From assembly GCF_000515415.1 (NCBI RefSeq), contig NZ_KI911783.1, positions 1,602,392-1,666,391 on the forward strand: a DNA stretch of 64,000 nt, read 5' to 3'. Position 1 is the stretch's first letter; every line of letters starts with the position of its first letter. The notes beneath the pieces are model-generated. The model did not search any database. It saw only the letters and a list, made by a program, of their open reading frames with translations, and was not told the origin of the DNA. Of this stretch, positions 24,971 through 31,493 are shown piece by piece. This DNA comes from Bradyrhizobium sp. WSM1417 (GTDB taxonomy: Bacteria > Pseudomonadota > Alphaproteobacteria > Rhizobiales > Xanthobacteraceae). The position numbers and the translations under genes are program-made.

Positions 24971-25047
<77 letters not shown>

Positions 25048-25451: not shown

Positions 25452-25997
25452 TTACTTTTCGGAGAGCTCCTGCCGGGCCTCGACTGAGGTATCCGCCTGT
25501 CGCGGCTTGGCTGCATGGGGGCAGACCATGGTCAGATTGAGCAATGTCGGCGCGTGATCCTCGCCATTGCCGTACTCCCAGACCAGACGAATCTCGTGTT
25601 GATCGGAATTGGCGTCGTCCTTCTGGTGTTGCCGGATGTCGGCCTTCATCGGAATCGGCGGTTCGGAGTTGAAGCACTTGCGGATGGATGCATCCAGCAG
25701 CGCGCATTTCGTCGGCGGCACCACGACACGTTCGTCATTCGAAAGCGGCGTGACGTTCGGCTGTGCGGCGAGCGCGAGACGCGCACGCCCCAGTGCCTTG
25801 AACCACACCTTGCCGCTGCCGTTCGGCCAAGTGTCAAGCGGCGACAGTATCGGCTGATACTGCCCGTATTCCATGGTCTCGATGTCGATTTGTTTCGATG
25901 CCTTGAGTCTGGCAACGCTTATCTTCATGTTTTCAAGAGGATAGTAATTGCCGTTCATCAGATCCTTGTAGTCCTGATTGTCGTAGACCATGCCCAT
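25452..25997 (-). CDS. Hypothetical protein, paralogue of the protein at 27658
   Basis: 181 residues from the ATG at 25997 (GAGGGG upstream). No family recognised. It aligns with the 163-residue protein at 27658 over nearly all its length. Shared features in order: Y/FKDLMN-NY-PLENM near the start, LKAS, EYGQY, a WP-GS segment, GRAR, QPN--PLS-DE, then CALLDASIRKCFNSEPPIPMK, HEIRL-W and LLNLTMVCPH. Conserved Cys residues are C in the LLDA segment, C in KCFNSE and C in the terminal VCPH. No signal peptide or membrane helix is visible, so it is probably cytosolic. The extra tail AAKPRQADTSVEARQELSEK is unique. The gene is 180 bases downstream of a MATE transporter. Confidence 0.8.
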   Translation of the reverse strand: MGMVYDNQDYKDLMNGNYYPLENMKISVARLKASKQIDIETMEYGQYQPILSPLDTWPNGSGKVWFKALGRARLALAAQPNVTPLSNDERVVVPPTKCALLDASIRKCFNSEPPIPMKADIRQHQKDDANSDQHEIRLVWEYGNGEDHAPTLLNLTMVCPHAAKPRQADTSVEARQELSEK

Positions 25998-26106
25998 GGA
26001 TCACCCCTCATCTTGCCTGATAGCGCCGGGCACCGGTGCCGGCGGACACTCCATCGCGCGAGCGACAGTGTAGTCAGTGCTTGTGCCCTCTAGTTTGCGT
26101 TGTGAA

Positions 26107-26135
26107 CGCTATCATTCCTCGAGATGTGACGTCAA
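26107..26135 (-). promoter_or_regulatory. Possible sigma-70 promoter of the 25452 gene
   Basis: On the minus strand TTGACG (26130-26135) is followed 17 bases later by ATAGCG (26107-26112), a weak -10. It lies about 110 bases upstream of the ATG at 25997, in the gap below the MATE gene. The -10 match is poor, so this is a low-confidence call. Confidence 0.3.
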
Positions 26136-26177
26136 CGAAAGCAACCTATAGTGTTTCCTTGGGCGTGCCTTGCGCGC

Positions 26178-27599
26178 TTACTTGTCGGCAGCGCTCGCAA
26201 GATTCAGTTGCCCCTTAACGTCGGTCTTGCGCGGCCCCCAGCGCGTAAACGCAACTGCTGCGCAGGAGAGAACACCCAGCAACATCATTGAAGCGGCCGT
26301 GAGCGAGAAAAAGCTCTCGGCCGTTGCCGCCTGCGAGATCAGATACCAGCCGCCAAGCATGATGAAGAGCAGCCGTGCCGTCTGCGCCAGCACTGGGCCG
26401 AGCACGTTGCCGGCGCCCTGCGACGAGAAATACATCGCCGAGGCAAGCCCGACGAAGGCGTAGAACGGAGCGACGGTCCGAAGGAACTGCCGGCTGGCGG
26501 CGTGGGCTCCAGCGTCTTCGGTAAACAGGTTGATCCAGGGGTCCGGGAAGGTCGCGACCGCGCCCGCGAGCGCTCCAACCACGAAGAGCGCGACGAGGCC
26601 GGCCGTCCAGGAGATCCGGCGGGCGCGAGCGATGCGTCCTGCACCAATCGCAACGCCGATCATGGGCACCGACCCGATGCCGACGGAAAAGGCAATCGTC
26701 GCCAGGACATATTCGAGCCGCGCGCCAATGCCGGAAGCTGCAAGGATAGCGGTGCCGAAGACTGCCAGCATATGGGTGAAGATGAGACTAGTCAGCATCG
26801 ACTGCAGCGGGGAGAAGCAGGCGACCGCGCCCACCTTGAGGATGTCCAGGAACATCCGCGATTGCAGGCGCAACCCGCGCACCTTGGGCACGATACGATC
26901 GCGGCCGGAAAAAAGGTACCAGCCCATCACCACAATATTGACCGAGCAGGCAATCAATGTGCCTGTTGCCACGCCCCGCATCCCGAATTGCGGTACCGGT
27001 CCAAAACCCAGGCCCAAGGTGCGGCCGAGGATGATTTGGATCACGGCGGAATTGACGATCATCAGCGACGGCAGTTTCATGTTGCCGGTGCCGCGCAGGA
27101 TGCCGGCCATAATATTTACGAGCCAGATCAGGACTGCCCCGCCGAAGTAAACTTGGCTATAGGCAATCGCCTGCGCCAGTACGTTGTCGCGACCGCCCAA
27201 CAATTCCAGGAGAGGGGGACCGCCGGCCAACATGCCTAGCATGAAGACCAAGCCGAAGAAGACGGCAATCAGAAGTGCGTGGGTGGCGAGGGTTGCAGCG
27301 CGGTCGCGGTCGCCTGCACCGAGCGCGCGGGCGATCGCTGACGAAACGCCGCTCCCCATTGCGGCGCCGGACATGCTCATGGTCAGCATGACGCAGGGGA
27401 ACACCAGCGCCATAGCTGCCAGCGATTCGACCCCAAGCTGTCCGATGTAGGACGTCTCAGCGATGGCAACTAACGTTCCGGCCGAGAATGCGATTGCATT
27501 TGGCCAAGCGAGTGAGAGCAACGTATGGAGGATCGGTCCGTCGAGCAGCTTGTTCGCAGCTGATTGAGCGGGCGGCGACAACGGACCGGCTCCTATCAT
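26178..27599 (-). CDS. MATE family efflux transporter
   Basis: A 473-residue membrane protein with about 12 hydrophobic helices in two repeated halves. Diagnostic stretches are LLSLAWPNAIAFSAGTLVAIAETSYIGQLG (helix 1), SGVSSAIARALGAGDRDRA, ILRGTGNMKLPSLMIV and the second-half counterpart SGIGARLEYVLATIAFSVGIGSVPMIGVAIGAG. MATE proteins export drugs or metabolites using Na+ or H+. It lacks a good ribosome site at 27599, so the exact start is uncertain. Its two neighbours on the same strand are paralogues of unknown function, hence an export/immunity or metabolite module is possible. Confidence 0.92.
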   Translation of the reverse strand: MIGAGPLSPPAQSAANKLLDGPILHTLLSLAWPNAIAFSAGTLVAIAETSYIGQLGVESLAAMALVFPCVMLTMSMSGAAMGSGVSSAIARALGAGDRDRAATLATHALLIAVFFGLVFMLGMLAGGPPLLELLGGRDNVLAQAIAYSQVYFGGAVLIWLVNIMAGILRGTGNMKLPSLMIVNSAVIQIILGRTLGLGFGPVPQFGMRGVATGTLIACSVNIVVMGWYLFSGRDRIVPKVRGLRLQSRMFLDILKVGAVACFSPLQSMLTSLIFTHMLAVFGTAILAASGIGARLEYVLATIAFSVGIGSVPMIGVAIGAGRIARARRISWTAGLVALFVVGALAGAVATFPDPWINLFTEDAGAHAASRQFLRTVAPFYAFVGLASAMYFSSQGAGNVLGPVLAQTARLLFIMLGGWYLISQAATAESFFSLTAASMMLLGVLSCAAVAFTRWGPRKTDVKGQLNLASAADK

Positions 27600-27657
27600 C
27601 TAGGCGGCGGGGGCGTCTGTATCGGCAGTATCCGTTCCCCGGGGACTAGAATGGTGT

Positions 27658-28149
27658 TCAGGATCTGTGCGGGCAGACCATCGTCAGATTGAGCAGCACC
27701 GGCTTGTCCGAGCCCTTCTTGTAGTCCCACTCCAGACGGATCTCGTGCCGGTGCGCGAAAGCGTCGCTGGCTTCGTGCGTGATGATCTTCGTCTTCATCG
27801 GGATCGGCGGCTCGGAGTTGAAGCATTTCCGCACGCAGGCATCGAGCAGATCGCATCGCGTCAGGGGAATGACGCCCGGCTCGTCTTTGGACAAGGGGAT
27901 CGTGTTGGGCTGGGTGCTGAGGTCGACGCGAGCCCGGCCCTTTTCCTTATGCCAGTACGCCGCGCTCCCATCTGGCCATTTGTCTGCCGGCGTCAGGATC
28001 AGGTGATACTGCCCGTATTCTAGGGTCGGCAGGTGGATGTCCGGGGACGCCTTGAGGATGTCCACGCTCCGCTGCATGTTTTCCAGCGGGAAATAATTGT
28101 CGTTCATCAAATCTTTGAATGAAGCCCCGGTATAAGTTCTTGAGCCCAT
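27658..28149 (-). CDS. Hypothetical protein, paralogue of the protein at 25452
   Basis: 163 residues from the ATG at 28149 (MGSRTYTG), preceded by AAGGAAAAGGCG; the upstream extension to 28251 is rejected. Same layout as the 25452 protein: FKDLMNDNYFPLENM, LEYGQYHLIL, the QPNTIPLSKDE region, CDLLDACVRKCFNSEPPIPMK, HEIRLEWDY, LLNLTMVCPH. It has one extra Cys in LLDACVRKC, and the C-terminus ends right after VCPHRS. No known domain recognised. It is the first gene in the presumed operon with the MATE transporter (59-base gap). Conservation of every distinctive block between the two copies implies selection for a specific fold or reaction. Confidence 0.8.
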   Translation of the reverse strand: MGSRTYTGASFKDLMNDNYFPLENMQRSVDILKASPDIHLPTLEYGQYHLILTPADKWPDGSAAYWHKEKGRARVDLSTQPNTIPLSKDEPGVIPLTRCDLLDACVRKCFNSEPPIPMKTKIITHEASDAFAHRHEIRLEWDYKKGSDKPVLLNLTMVCPHRS

Positions 28150-28436
28150 CGCCTTTTCCTTCAATATGTTCTTGGCTTCGCGAAAATACGTACAACTCCA
28201 GCGACGCCGGTCAGCTTGGCCAATCCTCGCGCCGTCGAATATGTGCCCCATCTTTGTTGGGATTTGCTTACGCTACCACTCAGGACTGTGTTTCGTCCAG
28301 ATCGCCAACCCGCACCCGTGCCCCGCTAAGGGTGAGGGCGCGAGCGCGATTGCTAAGAGGCTTTCGACAGGTATTCTAATCGAGAGGTGCTTGCGGTTCT
28401 GGTCGACAGAATGGCCGCTGCCTTTGAGGCGCAGGA

Positions 28437-31400
28437 ATGAATTGCTTCACGTGTCAGTCTGGGATCGGTCCGGACGATAGCTGGTGCTCCAAATGCGGGG
28501 CGGCGGTCCGCCAGCGCGTTGATCCCGACAGCGAACGAAGGTTTGTGACGATTCTGCGCGCTGACGTCGTCGACTCCACGGGTCTTGTTGCCGAGCTGGA
28601 GCCGGAGGCGGCGGTCTCGCGCCTCGAACCGGCACTTGCGGCGATGAGAGGCGCGGTGCGCCAGTTCGGCGGCATCGTCAGCAAGGAGTTGGGTGACGGC
28701 TTGGCCGCCGTCTTCGGCGCCCCGATCGCGGACGACAACCACGCCCCCCTGGCCTGCCACGCGGCCATCGAGCTGGTCCGGCGCGTCGGCAGTCTGGGCG
28801 ATCCAGGACTGCAAGTCCGGGTCGGCCTCCACTCGGGTCATGTGGTGGCCTACATGGTCGCGAGCGAATTTTCCAAGGTCTACGAGATCGGCGGCGCCGC
28901 CCAGCATCTGGCCGCGCGGCTGGAGACGGCAGCCGAGGCGAACCAGATCTACGTGTCCGAAGCCTGCCAGAAGCTTGCGGACGGACATGTCCGCTTTGAT
29001 TTTCTTGGGCGCAAGACTCTGCGCGGTTTCAACGAAGCTCTGCCGGTCTATCGGATCACTGGAGCGAGCGATCTTTCGAGCTGGCGGGTGCGACGCGCTC
29101 GTAGCGTCTCCCGGTTTGTCGACCGAACGACGGAGCGGGCGCTGCTATGGCGCGCTGCGGAGAAGGTTGCCACTAGCGGGCAGACTGTTCTGCTGATGGG
29201 GGATGCCGGCATTGGAAAGTCGCGGCTTGCGCACGAATTTGCGCAGGGCCTCAGGGCTGACGGCTGGCGGTTGCTCGATGTCGAATGCAGCCCAAATCTT
29301 CAGGGCGCGCCATTTAGCACCCTGAAGCGGCTGGTGCTTTCCCTCCTGGAGGCAGTCTCCAAGGACTCAGATCGCCTGGCAGACCCTCGAAAGCAATTGT
29401 CGGCCGTCCATCAGTTTGCAATCGACGCGGTGCTGGATTTGCCCATTTCCGATCCGCGTTGGAGCGAATTGGAGCCCTACGCCCGGGGGCGGGCGATTTC
29501 TGAGGCAAGCTGCGCAATCCTGGAAGGCGTAGCCCGTCACAAGGGCACCGTTCTTCTCATCGAGGATCTGCACTGGGTTGATCGAGCCAGCGACACAGTC
29601 ATTGCCGCCATAGCGTCGCTAAAGGTGCCGAATCTGTTCGTTTTTCTCACGAGCAGGCCGAACGGAATGCCGGAATGGATCGCGCGTTGTCATGCAGAAG
29701 TGATCGCGATGCGGTCATTGGATGATGAGTCCGGATTGGCCATGTTGGCCGACATGCTCGGCACGTCCGTGACAAATGCAGGCTTGAAGGACCGGATCAT
29801 CTCTCACACGGCCAACGTTCCGCTGTTCATCGAGGAGGTCTGCCGTGGTCTGAAGGATAACGGCACACTTCGCGGCCAGTGGGGTGATCTGGCCCTGGTG
29901 CGTCCCATAGAAGAGCTAGGTATTCCCACAAGTATCCAAGGCGTGATTGCAGCGCGACTCGATCGGGTGTCGAGGCAGGAGCGCCTGGTTTTGCAGGTCG
30001 CTGCCGCATTGGGGCCGCGATCGAGCGAAGCCGTGGTGCGGAGAGTCTCGGAATTGCCCGAAGACGCCCTGCGGGACAGCCTTGCAGCGCTCGATCGGGC
30101 CGAGCTGCTGGTCAGGATCGATAGCGACATCGCGGACTCGCTTGAGTTTCGACACGAGATGGTTCGCCAGGTGACCTATGAGTCGATGGTCGAAAAGGTC
30201 CGCGAGAGCGTACATGCGCGGGTTCTTGCGACATTCGAGAACGACGACATATTGAGAGATGATCCTGACGCCCTCTGTTACCACGCAATGCGTGCCAACG
30301 ATTGGCCCAAGGCGTTCAACTACGGGAGAATCGCCGCACAGAAGTGTCTTTTGCGCTCGGCATATGCAGACGCGGTCGACTACTTCCGGACAGCGATGAG
30401 TTCGCTCGACAAGACGCCAATAACCAGTTCGAGGGAGACGAATGCCATTGATCTCCGGATGGAGGCGCGCATGGCGTTCATCTGGTCCGGTCGGGTTGCC
30501 GAGTGGGTCGATCTGGGAAAGGAAGCTGACCAACGGGCCAGCGAGATCAATGATGTCGGCAGAAGGGTTGCCGCCAAGACGGTCATGGCGGGTGGGCAGA
30601 ACTTCTATGGGACACCTGCGGAGGCCGTTACCCTTGGCGAGGAGGTCGTTGGTCTTGCCGAAGAGTCCGGCAATCCGGGTTGGCGCAACCTTGCGCAATA
30701 CAATCTCGGGCAGGCCTATTTTCTTGCCGGGCGCTATCGCGAGGCGGAGCAGACTATCGCACGAGCCCGTGCCCATCTGATGGGCCCGGACGCGAGTGCG
30801 CCGTTCGGCACGCCCCCGAAATACACCTTGCTCCTCTGCTGTATGATGAAGAGCTTCACACACACCGTGATGGGTGAGTTCGATGCCGCCGAGCAGCTCC
30901 AGCAACAGGCTGCCGCGATCGCGGAGGAGACCGGCCGCCCCTACGACCGCGTCGCCGCCGCCTATAGCGGCGGCTGGCTGATGCTCGGCCGCGGCGAGCC
31001 GGCGGCGGCCGCGGCCATTCTCGAGGACGGTTTTGTCCTGGCGCAGAAGCACGGCATCCGGCTGTTCGTGCCGGTGCTCGCCTGCCACCTCGGCATGGCC
31101 TATCTGGAGCAGGGGCTGTTCGACCGCGCGCGCGGCATGCTGACGGAAGCGCGTGAGGAGGCGAAGGCGGTCGGCTATACCTCGGCCGTGCTGCGCAGCT
31201 CGATCTACCTGGCGCTCGCCACCCACCGTCTCGGCGACGTCCAGGCGGCGCAGAACATGCTGCGCGAGGCGCGCAACACCGCGCGACAACAGGGGTTCTC
31301 TGGGCTGGAGGCAGAGGCCCTGTTCGGCGAGGCCGTGGTGACGCCGCCGTCGGATGCGGAGGCCAAGGCGGCCATCCTCGCCGCCCTGCGCGCGACCATC

Positions 31401-31493
31401 GCGATCGCCGCCGAGAGCGGCGCGCTGCCGCTGCGGCACAAAGCCGAAGCGATGCTCAACGAGATGCAGGCGACGGGTGACGAGCTCAGCTGA
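28437..31493 (+). CDS. Zinc-ribbon / class III cyclase-like / AAA ATPase / TPR protein
   Basis: A 1018-residue protein. N-terminal zinc ribbon C-F-T-C...C-S-K-C (residues 3-20). Cyclase-like domain at about 35-205: metal Asp in ILRADVVDSTGL and ELGDGLAAVFG; but at the transition-state Asn position it reads GGAAQHLAARLE, with His instead of Asn and the Arg kept, so catalysis is doubtful. Then a P-loop ATPase (Walker A GDAGIGKS near 262; Walker B VLLIEDLHWVD), and a C-terminal half of TPR-like helices (residues 630-1010). Such proteins are thought to be signal-responsive ATPases or regulators. Base composition by eye rises sharply past about 30880. Neighbours are unrelated. Confidence 0.88.
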   Translation: MNCFTCQSGIGPDDSWCSKCGAAVRQRVDPDSERRFVTILRADVVDSTGLVAELEPEAAVSRLEPALAAMRGAVRQFGGIVSKELGDGLAAVFGAPIADDNHAPLACHAAIELVRRVGSLGDPGLQVRVGLHSGHVVAYMVASEFSKVYEIGGAAQHLAARLETAAEANQIYVSEACQKLADGHVRFDFLGRKTLRGFNEALPVYRITGASDLSSWRVRRARSVSRFVDRTTERALLWRAAEKVATSGQTVLLMGDAGIGKSRLAHEFAQGLRADGWRLLDVECSPNLQGAPFSTLKRLVLSLLEAVSKDSDRLADPRKQLSAVHQFAIDAVLDLPISDPRWSELEPYARGRAISEASCAILEGVARHKGTVLLIEDLHWVDRASDTVIAAIASLKVPNLFVFLTSRPNGMPEWIARCHAEVIAMRSLDDESGLAMLADMLGTSVTNAGLKDRIISHTANVPLFIEEVCRGLKDNGTLRGQWGDLALVRPIEELGIPTSIQGVIAARLDRVSRQERLVLQVAAALGPRSSEAVVRRVSELPEDALRDSLAALDRAELLVRIDSDIADSLEFRHEMVRQVTYESMVEKVRESVHARVLATFENDDILRDDPDALCYHAMRANDWPKAFNYGRIAAQKCLLRSAYADAVDYFRTAMSSLDKTPITSSRETNAIDLRMEARMAFIWSGRVAEWVDLGKEADQRASEINDVGRRVAAKTVMAGGQNFYGTPAEAVTLGEEVVGLAEESGNPGWRNLAQYNLGQAYFLAGRYREAEQTIARARAHLMGPDASAPFGTPPKYTLLLCCMMKSFTHTVMGEFDAAEQLQQQAAAIAEETGRPYDRVAAAYSGGWLMLGRGEPAAAAAILEDGFVLAQKHGIRLFVPVLACHLGMAYLEQGLFDRARGMLTEAREEAKAVGYTSAVLRSSIYLALATHRLGDVQAAQNMLREARNTARQQGFSGLEAEALFGEAVVTPPSDAEAKAAILAALRATIAIAAESGALPLRHKAEAMLNEMQATGDELS

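Follow-up and report, generated by a model that had tools for sequence, protein, structure and literature searches.

The stretch of DNA considered here (64,000 nucleotides of contig NZ_KI911783.1 of Bradyrhizobium sp. WSM1417; hereinafter the window) carries two genes for related small proteins without a name, P1 and P2, which enclose a gene for a MATE-family efflux transporter and adjoin a divergently transcribed gene for a class III nucleotidyl cyclase. P2, the core copy (27658..28149, minus strand, 163 aa), was delimited by its open reading frame (ORF), its translation and the family alignment; the frame stays open upstream as far as 28251, and relatives begin near the Met at 28149 or bear non-conserved extensions. 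P1 (25452..25997, minus strand, 181 aa) is a second, accessory copy, identical to P2 in 94 of 158 aligned residues (59%). A preliminary description, made from the sequence alone, had reported two paralogues with several shared blocks bracketing an exporter on one strand, and this holds: the named blocks are visible in the alignment, and P2, the transporter gene and P1 all lie on the minus strand. The transporter (26178..27599, 473 aa), an accessory element of the locus, is a MATE protein by PF01554 (MatE; E 4.3e-34, 118 bits against a cut-off of 24.9) and scores slightly below the cut-off of TIGR00797 (139.5 bits against 147.4). A search with the family profile gave 324 proteins at E ≤ 10 (120 among the matches listed), so the P1/P2 pair is not a product of chance. 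Apart from P1 and P2, no copy was found in the same genome at E ≤ 0.001.

The terminator proposed earlier after the last gene was also recovered, as an intrinsic-terminator-like hairpin past P1 (25394..25418, minus strand; 11 pairs, 10 of them G-C, a loop of 3, then a T run). It has the longest stem of the five sites with a hairpin and a T run in 3.6 kb, for which shuffled sequences gave 2.4. Because the intergenic gaps are 58 and 180 bp and such a hairpin follows P1, a single P2-MATE-P1 operon is a plausible prediction.

The cyclase gene (28437..31493, plus strand) lies just outside the interval covered by the preliminary description. Its product of 1018 aa comprises a zinc ribbon, a class III nucleotidyl cyclase domain, an AAA_16 ATPase and TPR repeats (PF00211, PF13191, PF13424). 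The cyclase domain scores 61 bits against PF00211 (cut-off 21.9), and the ATPase part matches AAA_16 with 65.3 bits (cut-off 32.6) and is followed by a TPR_12 match of 60.9 bits. The GxxGIGKS motif is kept in the alignment save for a few changes of Ile. A P-loop ATPase is thus followed by a repeat sensor, as in signal transduction ATPases with numerous domains (STAND); NACHT and nSTAND3 match below their cut-offs. Class III cyclases canonically possess two metal-binding Asp residues, a substrate-binding Lys and a transition-state Arg; their second substrate position is occupied by Asp or Thr, and the transition-state position by Asn. The first four are present (D43, D87, K83 and R161), and Glu (E150) and His (H157) stand in place of the others; all six residues are invariant in 118 of 118 aligned rows, in which some genomes are represented twice. 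The four cysteines of the zinc-ribbon-like N-terminal stretch (C3, C6, C17 and C20) occur in 117 of these rows, the remaining one being gapped. A more distant cyclase (L151) has YDAIGATVHLAARM, in which Asp is combined with His. On the simplest reading, the protein is predicted to be an active enzyme whose product is uncertain.

The distribution of the two genes was surveyed in 146 Bradyrhizobium genomes, among which near relatives are not independent. The small protein was found at E ≤ 0.001 in 67 genomes, and the same 67 encode the cyclase at 50–100% identity (50% in G084; split over two frames in G021; residues 1–720 only in G072). Among the 79 family-negative genomes, 12 carry only a cyclase paralogue of 41–44% identity at E ≤ 1e-200, and the other 67 gave no cyclase match at this threshold, which a badly broken gene could escape. 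The two genes are adjacent in all 67 family-positive genomes, divergent in 66 and codirectional in one (G084), with a gap between alignment ends of 123 to 359 bp (median 277 bp). In a separate survey of 65 loci from named records, with neighbours placed by tblastn (L062 and L067 being one assembly), the divergent cyclase was present in 64; the sequence of the remaining locus, L062, starts within the P2 gene and does not cover the place where the cyclase would lie.

A full-length MATE gene adjoins the P2 gene in only 10 of these 65 loci (L020, L022, L024, L029, L034, L035, L045, L055, L056 and L057), and four others (L037, L038, L046 and L060) hold a MATE remnant; L067 stops within the P2 gene and could show no MATE. 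Since the family adjoins the cyclase more reliably than the exporter, an undescribed partner of the cyclase is suggested. The preliminary description had placed the exporter at the heart of the module, with the two paralogues serving it in the making and export of a small molecule or in self-protection, a view to be given up if homologues rarely occurred with MATE genes. Its genomic basis is partly sound: a further small-protein copy lies beyond the MATE gene in 10 of 10 loci with the full-length gene, so the copy-MATE-copy order does recur, and a remote homologue adjoins a different MATE in two stretches without a cyclase (L127 and L128, described below). However, the scarcity of full-length MATE genes, the retention of the P2 gene beside the four remnants, the lack of any biosynthetic family match for P1 and P2 and the constant presence of the cyclase as neighbour make the exporter-centred explanation improbable. 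We propose instead that P1 and the MATE gene form an accessory cassette added behind P2. In strains possessing it, the MATE protein may act in the same pathway, which we regard as somewhat less than probable. A second small-protein copy also occurs without a MATE gene, in L059.

The association of P2 with the cyclase is retained when the surroundings change. At least five other surroundings keep the pair (L103; L064 and L108, from one genome; L118, L119 and L121; L120; L061 and L122, again from one genome), and the window neighbours searched for (OpgC, a DUF2059-like protein, aldehyde dehydrogenase, a GMC-family protein and others) were not found there at E ≤ 1e-8 in 12–16 kb. OpgC provides a fair linkage control, because its gene is often the next one on the other side of the cyclase. 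Over the 43 rows having all three proteins, the window among them, pairwise distances of the small protein and the cyclase correlate with r 0.48, or 0.47 given OpgC (0 of 2000 permutations); the correlations are 0.20 for OpgC with the cyclase and 0.09 for OpgC with the small protein.

Absence also concerns both genes. All 13 family-negative genomes with an OpgC match of at least 84% were examined at OpgC, which normally lies beyond the cyclase. An intact cyclase gene was found in 0 of the 13 stretches, two of which (L131 and L135) end at contig ends 3–5 kb beyond OpgC; short cyclase relics are present in L135 and L140. On the OpgC tree (58 rows), absence requires eight changes by parsimony, of which the supported branches force only two, as the group table shows, and the absence label clusters no more strongly than shuffled labels do. 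OpgC itself may have moved from strain to strain.

Remote homologues of the small protein were found beside other cyclases. Behind the cyclase paralogues of 41–44% identity, and in the same orientation, lies a small ORF of 129–141 residues where it is whole (it is broken in L114 and cut by the contig end in L110). Compared with the P1/P2 profile (subfamily I), this subfamily II gave an hhalign probability of 94.9 and an E of 4.3e-8, in a single comparison, over nearly the full length. Its predicted model (predicted local distance difference test, pLDDT, 81.4; predicted template modelling score, pTM, 0.73) shows a helix-then-three-strand order similar to that of P2, with one extra short helix. 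Subfamily II matches occur in 17 of the 146 genomes; in 13 of the 16 genomes tallied, a cyclase match is adjacent and codirectional. In G001, the cyclase adjoining the subfamily II gene reads in two frames, and G054, which stands outside the adjacency tally, retains relics of both genes. Crp-type genes (cNMP_binding and HTH_Crp domains) follow in most subfamily II stretches.

An order-wide search for the cyclase, which scored two candidates in each of 397 genomes from 141 genera, yielded nine genomes of two genera with a match at E ≤ 1e-120. The cyclase of L151, from the other genus and of 30–32% identity, is accompanied by a divergent small ORF (subfamily III), and a relative of this ORF is present in L154, the cyclase of which shares 75% identity with the L151 enzyme. 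Taken together, the L151 and L154 small sequences match subfamily II with a probability of 87.3 and an E of 3.8e-6. Subfamily III was found in 2 of 248 genomes of the family, exactly those with that cyclase (at least 75% identity), and it is adjacent to it.

A comparison of the subfamilies bears on the metal or disulfide function at which, in the preliminary description, three conserved Cys/His-containing segments were said to hint. C99, C109 and C159 are present in 62 of 62 subfamily I rows; however, C99 and C109 occur in 0 of 49 rows of subfamily II, and none of the three in either of the two rows of subfamily III. Such a function of the three Cys is thus not general to the family. The earlier statement that the proteins belong to no recognised family stands after profile searches: P1 and P2 have no match in Pfam, NCBIfam or PADLOC and no significant sequence match in the PDB. 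The AlphaFold2 model of P2 is confident (pLDDT 93.2, pTM 0.87), and a Foldseek search with it gave no match in the PDB. The family is conserved to near the C terminus.

Between the starts of P2 and the cyclase gene lies a conserved 29-nt element, CTGGACGA-N3-ACAGTC-N4-GTGGTAGC (28272..28300, minus strand). It forms a strongly kept block, mismatched in some rows, in an alignment of 67 intergenic stretches of 222–306 bp, comprising the window, 60 named loci among L003–L067 and others with a gap of 50–600 bp, from which L037, L062, L067, L103 and L119 were excluded. L020 and L108 show three mismatches to a looser form of the element. At no more than three mismatches it has a single match in the window and in the genome, and none in the control; L103 and the scanned subfamily II stretches gave no match with fewer than five mismatches. 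The element may hold the P2 promoter with an operator, a candidate for regulation of the pair.

This region raises the alternative that the two genes share a locus while doing separate jobs, P2 being a target or output gene, for instance one switched on by a rise in the cyclic nucleotide, that has a promoter region in common with the cyclase gene without contact between the products. The divergent order with a unique conserved element between the starts, as well as the presence or absence of the neighbours as a block, would fit such an arrangement. Nevertheless, G084 and the 13 subfamily II genomes having a cyclase match show the two genes in codirectional order, and what is conserved is therefore not a common divergent promoter. 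Besides, the joint divergence of the small protein and the cyclase exceeds that with OpgC, for which contact is the better fit. We therefore consider separate jobs at a shared locus rather unlikely, though less so than the exporter-centred explanation.

Among studied systems, the nearest case found for the window cyclase is XC_0250 of Xanthomonas campestris, a class III cyclase with TPR repeats (886 aa) that makes cGMP; the linked XC_0249 is a cNMP-GGDEF receptor that binds the nucleotide, and related cyclase domains in Bradyrhizobium are mentioned (PMC3770947). In both cases a cyclase domain close to the N-terminal end is connected to TPR repeats, and XC_0250 works with a linked gene, as is proposed for the window cyclase; the linked gene there encodes a receptor, whereas in the window it encodes a small orphan protein. 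No receptor gene was found in the window with the Crp-type protein of L105 as query, which also missed the divergent Crp of L122. The cyclases CyaD1, CyaD2 and CyaK of Sinorhizobium meliloti with the receptor Clr are likewise rhizobial adenylate cyclases with a Crp-type receptor, but the literature on that pathway names CHASE2-domain cyclases.

The domain composition also recalls Pycsar, in which phage infection would trigger the cyclase and the small protein would be the effector. The cyclase belongs to the same catalytic superfamily as PycC, judging by a weak match to the PADLOC profile (E 2.9e-5) that other class III cyclases might equally give. Its joining to an ATPase and TPR repeats, the sub-cut-off NACHT and nSTAND3 matches, and a patchy presence with joint absence and several surroundings would suit a defence system. 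On the other hand, P1, P2, the MATE protein and the small protein of L105 match no PADLOC family at E ≤ 0.01, no recognised effector domain or family was found in the searches of the orphan partner, and all subfamily I matches came from a single genus, which together leaves a defence role very improbable.

TIGR03903 invites a further comparison, with clusters of ribosomally synthesised and post-translationally modified peptides (RiPPs) of the thiazole/oxazole-modified microcin (TOMM) type; the cyclase would then be a cousin of TIGR03903, and the small proteins in tandem would be precursor peptides comparable to the TIGR03795 (NHLP-Burk) pairs. The match to TIGR03903 reaches 284.5 bits and aligns the cyclase, ATPase and TPR parts along residues 31–1009. 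Still, this is far under the cut-off of 705.75. TIGR03903 proteins bear an N-terminal protein kinase part. Here the match starts at position 282 of the model, what stands ahead of the cyclase domain is a Cys4 zinc-ribbon-like stretch, and no kinase family was listed in the Pfam scan. P1 and P2 matched no NCBIfam family at E ≤ 10, TIGR03795 included, and their conservation to near the C terminus and the confident folded model of P2 tell against precursors. Searching the window with a single YcaO and a single TfuA query gave no homologue at E ≤ 1e-3. Two loci have neighbours of this kind: in L108 (9114–11377), an NHLP-type peptide gene (NF038399, 42.4 bits, cut-off 40), a TfuA-like gene and YcaO stand beside the small gene, and in L120 (8748–10973) a YcaO homologue at 67% has similar-looking neighbours. 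These may be RiPP clusters, and they count in favour of precursors; for the P1/P2 family as a whole we regard that role as the least probable of the explanations considered.

The observations of the preliminary description are thus confirmed, and the interpretation shifts to a signalling pair centred on the cyclase, the exporter cassette being optional. Our overall explanation, to which we give an even chance, is that P2 serves the divergently encoded class III cyclase as a dedicated partner protein. The co-occurrence, the adjacency, the joint absence, the keeping of the pair across surroundings, the joint divergence in three subfamilies and the intergenic element can be read from the DNA itself, and a functional partnership of the small protein with the cyclase, supported by position, appears quite probable. 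That the small protein binds the cyclase directly and controls it is possible, if somewhat doubtful. In this mechanism, the small cytosolic protein would attach to the cyclase, most likely at the ATPase/TPR part, and would set when the cyclic nucleotide is made, the direction and chemistry of this control being equally conjectural; a Crp-type receptor encoded elsewhere would read the signal, and the cassette of P1 and MATE would possibly be an output, or would export what the system senses.

Several observations weigh against this explanation. Divergent genes may share regulation without contact of their products, and the distance correlation could also arise if the pair were transferred together. 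An intact small gene occurs with a cyclase split over two frames in G021 and L037; in L037 (3615–8486), the two-frame cyclase lies about 1.3 kb away from it. E150 and H157 leave the product of the cyclase uncertain. A homologue of the subfamily II Crp of L105 was not found in the window or in 72 subfamily I loci, with a query that misses divergent Crp proteins, such as the one near the pair in L122. In G098 (L128) and G119 (L127), the subfamily II gene is divergent from a MATE gene with a Crp-type gene adjacent, and no cyclase was found in the 14-kb stretch or, at E ≤ 1e-200, in the genome. The L151 small sequence alone reached subfamily I only at E 0.064, and subfamily II with a probability of 49 and an E of 1.7e-4. 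Finally, the cyclases of L155–L171 (34–45% identity to that of L151) have no small partner detectable within 1.5 kb on each side, which indicates that only particular lineages of the cyclase possess the small partner.

The loci of L127 (6222–8220) and L128 (6107–8148) combine a small gene with a different MATE, 31–32% identical to that of the window and with PF01554 found in L128. As a remote homologue adjoins a MATE gene without a cyclase in these two genomes, some link to export may be real. A bolder version of the partnership, which we think unlikely, would make the small family an undescribed obligate gate of a STAND-type cyclase, with a fold unmatched in the PDB search; the active site, with fixed Lys, Glu and His instead of the usual residues, would possibly make an unusual cyclic nucleotide, and each cyclase lineage would have its own gate, rewirable to MATE upon loss of the cyclase.

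Rhizobia carry many class III cyclases, the inputs of which are, to our knowledge, mostly unknown. If P2 is a dedicated partner, it would offer a handle on the switching of one group of ATPase/TPR-coupled cyclases, and a family of 'hypothetical proteins' could then be tested as a component of cyclic-nucleotide signalling in bacteria of soil and root nodules.

The second copies have a history of their own. The P1-type copies form a separate clade of nine rows, supported by an approximate likelihood ratio test of the Shimodaira–Hasegawa type (SH-aLRT) of 99, and the second copies of L022 and L055–L057 form another clade apart from it. This indicates a repeated origin or exchange of the copy behind MATE. 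In L034 (10077–11277), two more P1-type copies stand in tandem behind the MATE gene. One contig titled Frankia sp. RB7 (L048, JAUEPE010000041.1) carries the locus at 81% protein identity and falls inside the Bradyrhizobium tree; it is probably mislabelled or contaminating.

In the flanks of L159–L161 and L163, from another genus of the family, a Crp-like gene was observed near the cyclase-AAA-TPR gene, with no small partner seen; the Pfam check covered the L159 gene only.

The three minus-strand genes P2, MATE and P1 are placed between the divergent cyclase gene and a tRNA-Met(CAT) gene (24971–25047, plus strand). The earlier report of an initiator tRNA beside the genes is right as to its presence: the tRNA has a C1/A72 mismatch, which we take to be an initiator mark, and an anticodon stem of TCAGG/CCTGA instead of three G-C pairs. 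It is unrelated to the small-protein genes, however, since it persists in stretches without them, lying on the same stretch as OpgC in L133, L134, L137, L139, L140, L141 and L142.

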